Shown here piece by piece: positions 53,887 through 55,252 of a stretch of 64,000 bases of DNA (position 1 is its first letter; each line of letters begins with the position of its first letter). Origin of the DNA: Candidatus Dormiibacterota bacterium (GTDB lineage Bacteria > Acidobacteriota > Polarisedimenticolia > Gp22-AA2); NCBI GenBank assembly GCA_035635555.1, contig DASQAT010000046.1:124001-188000 (forward strand), given 5' to 3'. The notes below the pieces were generated by a model that was not told where the DNA came from, searched no databases, and saw only the letters and a program-made list of their open reading frames with translations. Position numbers and translations under genes: made by a program.

Positions 53887-54156
53887 ATGAAGCGCGCATT
53901 ACGATTCGCGATTCGCGTTCTTGTCCTGGCGGCCGTCATCTCCGGCATCACGATCTTCAGCAGTCTGTCGCCAAAGCCGACGATGCCCTACCTCTCTGCG
54001 CTGGCCGACCTGGGAGCAGTCCAGGCGCTGGCGGCGCAGCGTTGCGAATTCCGCGCCTGCTCGAAGGGGCCGGGTGGAGGGCCGAGCTGCAAGAGCTCCG
54101 GTTCGCCCTACAACTGCAAGAACGTCGCCGGCGGCTGCCAGCTCAGTCCCTGCTGA
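53887..54156 (+). CDS. Small exported six-cysteine peptide (paralogue of 22385-22645)
   Basis: 89 residues. Signal/anchor FAIRVLVLAAVISGITIF, spacer with PKP..PY.SAL, ALAA before the mature part, then Cys53, 58, 68, 77, 84, 89: C-x4-C-x9-C-x8-C-x6-C-x4-C. The YNC, the GG before the fifth Cys, CQ after it and the C-terminal Cys are shared with the gene at 22385. Outer spacings (x4, x6, x4) are identical; the middle loop is longer and Gly-rich. Strong SD GGGAGGAGG 5 bases before ATG. 169 bases after tRNA-Glu. No family recognised. Confidence 0.8.
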   Translation: MKRALRFAIRVLVLAAVISGITIFSSLSPKPTMPYLSALADLGAVQALAAQRCEFRACSKGPGGGPSCKSSGSPYNCKNVAGGCQLSPC

Positions 54157-54168
54157 AACCTGCGCGCG

Positions 54169-54813
54169 TCAGAGCGGGCAGTCCCCGGAGAAAGGGATCT
54201 CCTCCTGTCCATCGCTTGAATGTCCGTAGGTGGTGTCGCCGCTGGGAAGCCCGAAGGCGCGCACCAGGTAGAAATAGGCCGATCCCAGCGGAGGCAACTC
54301 CGGGTCGCTCGGACCGGTCACGTACCACCAGGCTGCCTGCGGGACGTCGTTGGCCAGGCACGACACGCGTCCCAGATCGATGATCGATCCCCCGGAGGAC
54401 AGCCCCGGAAGATCGCCGCGAATGACATCGTGAGAGACGGCACAGGTGACATGGTTCCAATTCACGCGCGGAGGCGTGTCGGCGCTGATCCAGAGATCCG
54501 TGAACGGGATGGGGCACGGGGGCTGCGACACGAGGACCGACTGCGGTGCGATGATCTGACACTCGATGCCGACGTTCGGTCCGTCCACGGCGACGTACTC
54601 GCACAGATAGGGATCCATGTTGACAGCACCGCGGTCGTCGAGCAGGTACTGAGGGTTCCCCGTGCAGGGATCCGTCAGGAAATGAGACTCCTGCAGACAG
54701 AAGGTCGGCACCCAGGGAAGCTCGACGTATCCCCGGTAGGCGGCCGAAGACACGCCTGACGTCGCGAACAGAAGCGCCAGCAGGAGGGCGAATCGGTGAA
54801 CGTGTGGAGGCAT
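54169..54813 (-). CDS. Exported cysteine-rich protein of unknown function
   Basis: 214 residues. Signal peptide FALLLALLFATSGVSSAA; the mature part has eight cysteines spread over short beta-like segments (PTFCLQESHFL, VGIECQIIAP, SQPPCPIPF, ...). The C-terminus GSAYFYLVRAFG...TTYGHSSDG...SGDCPL matches the plan of the giant protease's end (AIYYLVGHR...GRGLNN...ISCP). ATG 54813 with GGAGAG upstream is chosen for the signal peptide. A consensus-like promoter lies at 54891-54919. Extracytoplasmic; function unknown. Confidence 0.7.
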   Translation of the reverse strand: MPPHVHRFALLLALLFATSGVSSAAYRGYVELPWVPTFCLQESHFLTDPCTGNPQYLLDDRGAVNMDPYLCEYVAVDGPNVGIECQIIAPQSVLVSQPPCPIPFTDLWISADTPPRVNWNHVTCAVSHDVIRGDLPGLSSGGSIIDLGRVSCLANDVPQAAWWYVTGPSDPELPPLGSAYFYLVRAFGLPSGDTTYGHSSDGQEEIPFSGDCPL

Positions 54814-54869
54814 GGGCTTCTCTCCTTCCTCTTGGGTTCCCGCGGGTGCGGCGCCGAGCGGGGAGAGAA

Positions 54870-54898
54870 TTGACCAACGTCGTTCCATCATTTATACG
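54870..54898 (+). promoter_or_regulatory. Promoter TTGACC-N17-TATACG for the YciI-like gene
   Basis: TTGACC 54870-54875, 17 bases, TATACG 54893-54898, 61 bases before the ATG. Faces and overlaps the minus-strand promoter. Confidence 0.6.
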
Positions 54899-54919
54899 AC
54901 CAGGATGCGCTTCGGTCAA
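54891..54919 (-). promoter_or_regulatory. Promoter TTGACC-N17-TATAAA for the exported Cys-rich protein
   Basis: Minus strand: TTGACC 54919-54914, 17 bases, TATAAA 54896-54891, 78 bases before the ATG at 54813. Its -10 shares 4 bases with the opposing -10. Confidence 0.65.
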
Positions 54920-54958
54920 CCTGCCTTTTACGGGCCGATTTCGAGGAGGGAGGACCCG

Positions 54959-55252
54959 ATGTACGCGATCGCGATCGTGCGATATCGCAAGCCGCTGGAC
55001 GAGGTTCTCAAGGTCGTCGAGGCCCACCGGGACTACCTGCGGGACTTGAAGAAGAAGGGCTGGCTCCTGGCCTCGGGTCCGCTCGACCCGCGCAACGGCG
55101 GTCTGCTGCTCCTGCGTGTTCCTGACGAGCAGGCCCCTTCCCATCTCGACCGGGTGAGGGACGACGATCCCTTCGTCGCGACGGGGACGGCCCAGTACGA
55201 GATCTGGCCGTGGCTGCCGAACATCGGCCGGGAGGATCTCGATCGCCTGTGA
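54959..55252 (+). CDS. YciI-like protein
   Basis: 97 residues, one ferredoxin-like YciI/YCII domain: MYAIAIVRYRKPLDEVLKVVEAHRDYL, GWLLASGPLDP, DDPFVATGTAQYEIWPW. The His in EAHRDYL and the Asp in SGPLDP match the proposed active-site pair of the family, whose substrate is unknown. Strong SD GAGGAGGGAGG. ATG 54959; longer in-frame starts run into the divergent promoter. Confidence 0.82.
   Translation: MYAIAIVRYRKPLDEVLKVVEAHRDYLRDLKKKGWLLASGPLDPRNGGLLLLRVPDEQAPSHLDRVRDDDPFVATGTAQYEIWPWLPNIGREDLDRL

Follow-up and report, generated by a model that had tools for sequence, protein, structure and literature searches.

The 50 bp at 54870-54919 of the window (the whole 64,000-nucleotide stretch of DNA that was analysed) raise two questions. 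Do they carry a promoter in each direction, one for a yciI-like gene on the plus strand and one for the gene of an exported protein on the minus strand? Does the use of one direction exclude the other? The locus is interpreted here as, probably, an ordinary RpoD-type bidirectional promoter of the Warman/Grainger kind, whose two directions would be largely independent at low activity and would compete partially if either were strong. The two opposed RpoD-type promoters, their common -10 core and their placement for the two genes are retained from the original prediction; its mutual exclusivity of the genes and its dimeric operator are not.

The yciI-like gene (54959-55252, plus strand) encodes 97 aa matching Pfam YCII (PF03795, E 4.7e-12). 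The exported-protein gene (54169-54813, minus strand) encodes 214 aa with an N terminus that, by eye, resembles a signal peptide; no Pfam match was listed for this protein at a limit of E 10. Each start codon is preceded at an ordinary distance by a sequence resembling a ribosome-binding site (AGGAGGGAGG, near 54944-54953, for yciI; AGGAG, 54826-54822 on the minus strand, for the exported gene), and a self-trained gene caller chooses identical starts for both genes. A structure of the exported protein predicted from its single sequence was discarded (mean pLDDT 36), and a peptide-pattern scan of the genome contigs with this protein found no relative. Its C-terminal half (54175-54546, minus strand; about residues 90-213) has repeated counterparts in its own genome, where 15 matches, the protein itself among them, reach E 0.001, and also across the family. 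These often lie within much longer open frames; this half is perhaps a lineage-wide exported domain. A gene for a small Cys-rich protein (53887-54156, plus strand; start that, by eye, resembles a signal peptide; without a Pfam match above the cut-off) lies downstream of a tRNA-Glu gene. Between 53000 and 56000, two tRNAs alone reach the curated cut-off of Rfam. A scan of five proteins encoded nearby gave no match to a repressor or activator family that binds DNA; it assigned one of them, whose gene lies two genes away, to the DksA/TraR-type zinc-finger proteins.

The promoter read towards yciI consists of a -35 hexamer TTGACC (54870-54875) and a -10 hexamer TATACG (54893-54898). The promoter read towards the exported gene consists, on the minus strand, of TTGACC (54919-54914) and TATAAA (54896-54891). 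Both -35 hexamers match the consensus at 5/6 bases. The letters and coordinates originally given for these elements are exact to the base, as are the two 17-bp spacers, the identical -35 hexamers and the overlap of the -10 hexamers in a self-complementary TATA (54893-54896), which is the centre of the arrangement. The -10 elements of the two strands thus overlap in near-symmetrical sequence, as they do in bidirectional promoters. "Face-to-face", the term first applied to them, is wrong: the genes diverge, and the promoters read outward from the common core, with transcripts predicted to begin at about 54905 (plus) and about 54884 (minus). The base at each predicted start, 54905 for yciI (7 bp past the -10) and 54884 for the exported gene, is A on its strand, and the predicted starts are 21 bp apart. 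An alternative minus register (TAAATG, 19-bp spacer, score 10.3 in the promoter model used below) would place the starts 23 bp apart. Both -10 hexamers lack the final T, and that of the plus promoter ends in G. This T is present in 85% of 142 modelled promoters, and a strict consensus scan that requires it lists neither focal promoter.

The promoter model was based on 819,612 bases of the genome of the window (the window and 38 further stretches), with 624 called genes and 300 upstream regions; the weight matrix was trained on 298 of the latter, the focal ones being excluded. In these regions, the motif obtained is TTGACN-N17/18-TANNNT. Since the TAnnnT box emerges 17-18 bp behind TTGAC without prior assumption, the housekeeping promoter of this genome is of the usual type. 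The focal sequence fits the model in both directions, as a bidirectional promoter should, with scores of 13.7 (plus) and 16.6 (minus). The plus score is reached by 75 of the 298 other upstream regions and the minus score by 37; a score of 13 is reached in 0.67% of 1500 shuffled upstream regions. Each focal promoter is the top match on its own strand of the 145-bp intergenic region, and, as the genes diverge, each gene probably has its promoter in this region.

The overlap exceeds what chance provides. Sixty-five divergent gene pairs have a gap of at least 60 bp, 56 of them a gap of 60-400 bp. Among these 56, the focal region alone has overlapping -10 elements with both scores at or above 11; shuffling gives a mean of 0.035 such pairs per set (200 sets), and 0.005 at a threshold of 13. 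At a threshold of 9, three overlapping pairs are found (two registers of the focal site, and locus L062), with 0.255 in shuffles. Because TATA is self-complementary, a control in which the minus promoter is fixed and the flanks are shuffled is fairer: an overlapping plus promoter scoring at least 13.7 arises in 0.19% of 20,000 trials. Counts were also made over all 820 kb, intergenic and other sequence alike, for pairs with starts 10-26 bp apart. At scores of at least 11, there are nine such pairs at four places vs 2.4 per shuffled set; at scores of at least 13, there are two (the focal one and L064:14006) vs 0.2 (five shuffled sets). Distances of 21 and 23 bp are the commonest among model pairs scoring at least 9 in the 820 kb.

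The pair at L064:14006 (C35:154006 of the same genome) is a second strong overlapping -10 pair, with a distance of 21 bp and scores of 19.6 and 13.4. The genes on either side of it point the same way, and the transcript of its reverse promoter would accordingly be antisense or non-coding. A search of 247 Acidobacteriota genomes for the fully symmetric pattern TTGAC-N18-TATA-N18-GTCAA gave a single site in each of 3, and a control pattern was matched in one; to judge from these genomes, the phylum does not commonly use this exact design. One occurrence, L097:1501-1550, is in a genome (G009) from another family of the order and reads TTGACA-N17-TATAAT in one direction.

Relatives were compared by means of the genome of the window (G000), a sister species (G004) and a member of another genus of the same family (G007). 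Genes resembling yciI are present in five of the eight genomes of the family; relatives of the exported gene (E 1e-18 or better) are present in three of the twelve genomes of the order, that of the window included. Among genomes with these relatives, the two genes are directly divergent, besides the window, in G004 alone. The G004 contig breaks off within the exported gene, so that 137 of its 214 residues are visible; the genes on the other side resemble, by eye, the permease, DksA-like and transporter genes of the window, in the same order. At four-fold degenerate positions, the yciI genes of G000 and G004 agree in only 15 of 39 cases, which means that sites free of constraint are close to saturation. 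Against this background, 32 of the 50 bp of the promoter zone are identical (binomial P 2e-4). The sequence TATACGAC is kept at 8/8 positions, the minus -35 at 5/6 and the plus -35 at 4/6; the plus -10 is kept at 6/6 and the minus -10 at 4/6 (TATAAA vs TATATG). The G004 minus promoter (TTGACG-N17-TATATG) scores 15.7, and a second minus register there (TATGAT, 19-bp spacer, 14.6) would place the starts 23 bp apart. The G004 plus promoter (TGGACG-N17-TATACG) is without a conserved T in its -35, and its score is down to 9.9; the conditional shuffles reach 9.8 in 3.3% of cases. Twenty loci were compared over the 250 bases that precede yciI: L003 alone has promoters scoring at least 8 on both strands, and these overlap at the -10. 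Across the class (41 genomes), a DNA search returned G000, G004 and four further matches, 22-31 bases long, which were taken as chance.

The two halves do not have the same distribution. In G007, yciI and the exported-gene homologue (58% in its first 40 residues, after which the contig ends) diverge with at least one other gene between them, and yciI is 1.7 kb from the leader of the exported gene. The region upstream of this homologue aligns without gaps with that of the window, from the -35 through a conserved block described below. It has a minus promoter TTGACG-N17-TATAGA, which scores 14.2, and the TATA core is identical in G000, G004 and G007. The distance from the minus -10 to the start codon is 83, 82 and 81 nt in these three genomes. 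A more distant relative of the exported gene, in G002, is preceded by TTGCCC-N17-TATAGA (11.5), closer to the start; an opposite-strand match of 9.5 is located elsewhere in that region. Since the promoter of the exported gene recurs in G004 and G007, and with the G002 relative, the minus half is assigned to the exported gene. The position of the plus -35 reads TTGACC in G000, TGGACG in G004 and TTCACG in G007, and in G007, where yciI is not adjacent, no opposite promoter scoring at least 6 was found in the upstream region of the exported gene. This fits a plus half that is maintained only where there is an adjacent gene for it to transcribe, as far as three species can tell. In another genome, G006 (locus L006), the order, by eye, is tRNA-Glu, a homologue of the small Cys-rich gene and then yciI, without the exported gene.

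Upstream of the yciI -35, and within what is presumed to be the 5' leader of the exported gene, lies a G+C-rich block of 28 bp (54839-54866). It is identical to G004 at 27 of 28 positions (P 1e-10 against the four-fold sites) and is more conserved than the promoter itself. As it is recognisable in G007 within the leader of the exported gene, the block goes with that gene; a scan found it in no other of the 12 genomes of the order at three mismatches or fewer. An N-terminal extension of the exported protein was rejected as an explanation of the block: a 1-base gap between the block and the G004 start codon shifts the frame. A hairpin that would mask the ribosome-binding site of the exported gene (8-nt arms, 54818-54825 and 54862-54869) was also rejected: the G004 arms pair, by hand, two positions out of register, and the G004 fold does not use them. 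The fold z-scores are -1.2 (G000) and +0.66 (G004). A three-species consensus fold has 15 pairs: in 3 of them both bases change with pairing preserved, and 8 are broken in one species; its covariation term is unfavourable (+1.44). A conserved leader fold is not supported by these sequences.

Promoters of the bidirectional type are known from E. coli and other prokaryotes (Warman et al. 2026, PMC12825309; Middlemiss et al. 2023, PMC10268837), and the present arrangement is probably of this kind. The resemblance to the promoters of these papers covers opposed promoters with a common near-symmetrical -10, starts (predicted at the focal locus) that flank it on opposite strands, a geometry that admits one polymerase orientation at a time, and a location between divergent genes for a share of them. 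At the focal locus, too, only one polymerase was expected to bind at a time; this would follow from the overlap geometry, and PMC12825309 states it for such promoters. The same paper gives 18, 10 or 23 bp as the commonest distances between starts in E. coli, with small variations allowed, and 10 to 23 bp for the five promoters tested; the focal predicted distance, 21 bp, is none of the three commonest. The focal locus further differs from the known examples, as there described, by near-consensus -35 elements in both directions, by 17-bp spacers and by its G+C-rich Acidobacteriota context. Bidirectional promoters also lie between the divergent genes acrA/acrR and soxS/soxR of E. coli (PMC12825309). 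In those pairs a regulator gene stands next to a gene under its control, unlike the focal pair, which has no recognisable regulator.

Could the TTGACC/GGTCAA arms be half-sites of a dimeric regulator instead of -35 boxes? They are identical and symmetric about the TATA core, but TTGAC 17 bp from TA is the promoter motif of the whole genome, and the remainder of the 50 bp is not symmetric, so that this reading is scarcely credible. About the axis at 54894.5, 13 of 25 pairs are complementary: 2/2 in the core, 6/6 in the -35 arms and 5/17 elsewhere, where about 4.4 are expected. When the columns of the 92-bp alignment of G000 and G004 were shuffled 2000 times, 38% of the shuffles did as well as the best axis found with 10-bp arms. 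One dyad, at 54907.5, had appeared attractive on account of a single compensated swap in G004, but was rejected because 38% of column shuffles equal it. The palindrome formerly put forward as a site for a dimeric regulator is therefore at chance outside the promoter elements, and no dyad symmetry beyond these elements was found to be kept in the relatives. An orientation switch, in which the polymerase or a regulator commits the region one way and makes yciI and the exported gene mutually exclusive, is very improbable. It would draw on the two -35 elements at 5/6 of the consensus with 17-bp spacers, on the conserved block just upstream of the plus -35, and on the E. coli work, in which (PMC12825309) an improved -35 greatly cut the opposite RNA, bdcR excepted. 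Yet the five natural promoters of that same work showed little competition at basal activity, no repressor or activator family was recognised among the five neighbouring proteins scanned, no supported operator dyad was found, and the block accompanies the leader of the exported gene in G007, with yciI 1.7 kb away. According to PMC12825309, the divergent RNA was little affected when one -35 was weakened in the five promoters tested, and competition was seen once a -35 had been strengthened by mutation (bdcR excepted) or on activation. The mutual exclusion first foreseen finds no support in this source, where competition occurs only at strong activity.

As both -35 elements are near consensus, partial competition is conceivable at the focal locus. 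A stronger form, in which a double-strong bidirectional promoter lets polymerase orientation set a trade-off between YciI and the exported protein while the 28-bp block tunes the exported side, is improbable. It is also unlikely that the leftward promoter alone is functional, the rightward one being a by-product of TATA and a chance TTGACC, with yciI transcribed from elsewhere or hardly at all. The minus promoter is indeed the stronger of the two, outscores the plus promoter in G004 and recurs in G007, the three species differ at the plus -35 and the plus -10 ends in G; the minus half is surer than the plus half. Against this, an overlapping plus promoter as good as the observed one seldom arises by chance (the 0.19% above), the plus -10 is fully kept in G004, and the intergenic regions ahead of yciI in both genomes, G000 and G004, contain no other plus candidate above 6.5.

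We therefore return to the ordinary bidirectional promoter as the preferred reading. The sequences and their comparison establish the elements and their geometry, the excess over chance, the conservation in the sister species and the recurrence of the exported-gene promoter in another genus. A polymerase with the housekeeping sigma factor would bind in either orientation and melt the same TATA core, each orientation using its own TTGAC -35, 17 bp from the core. Leftward initiation at about 54884 would lead into the exported-protein gene, and rightward initiation at about 54905 into yciI. We infer these start sites, the two-way activity and the following order of events from the sequences compared: the minus half probably arrived with the exported gene, and the plus half would be made of the self-complementary TATA and a -35-like box on the other side.

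The arrangement is a well-formed example of a type already known in bacteria, and is also kept by the sister species; it provides a clean, conserved case in the Acidobacteriota, a phylum for which very little literature on such promoters or starts was found. As a natural promoter with two good -35 elements, the locus could be used to test whether such a promoter enters the competition regime that was reached in E. coli by mutation or activation. It also suggests how a bidirectional promoter may originate: for a TATA core made for one gene, no more than a -35-like box opposite would be required to serve the neighbouring gene.
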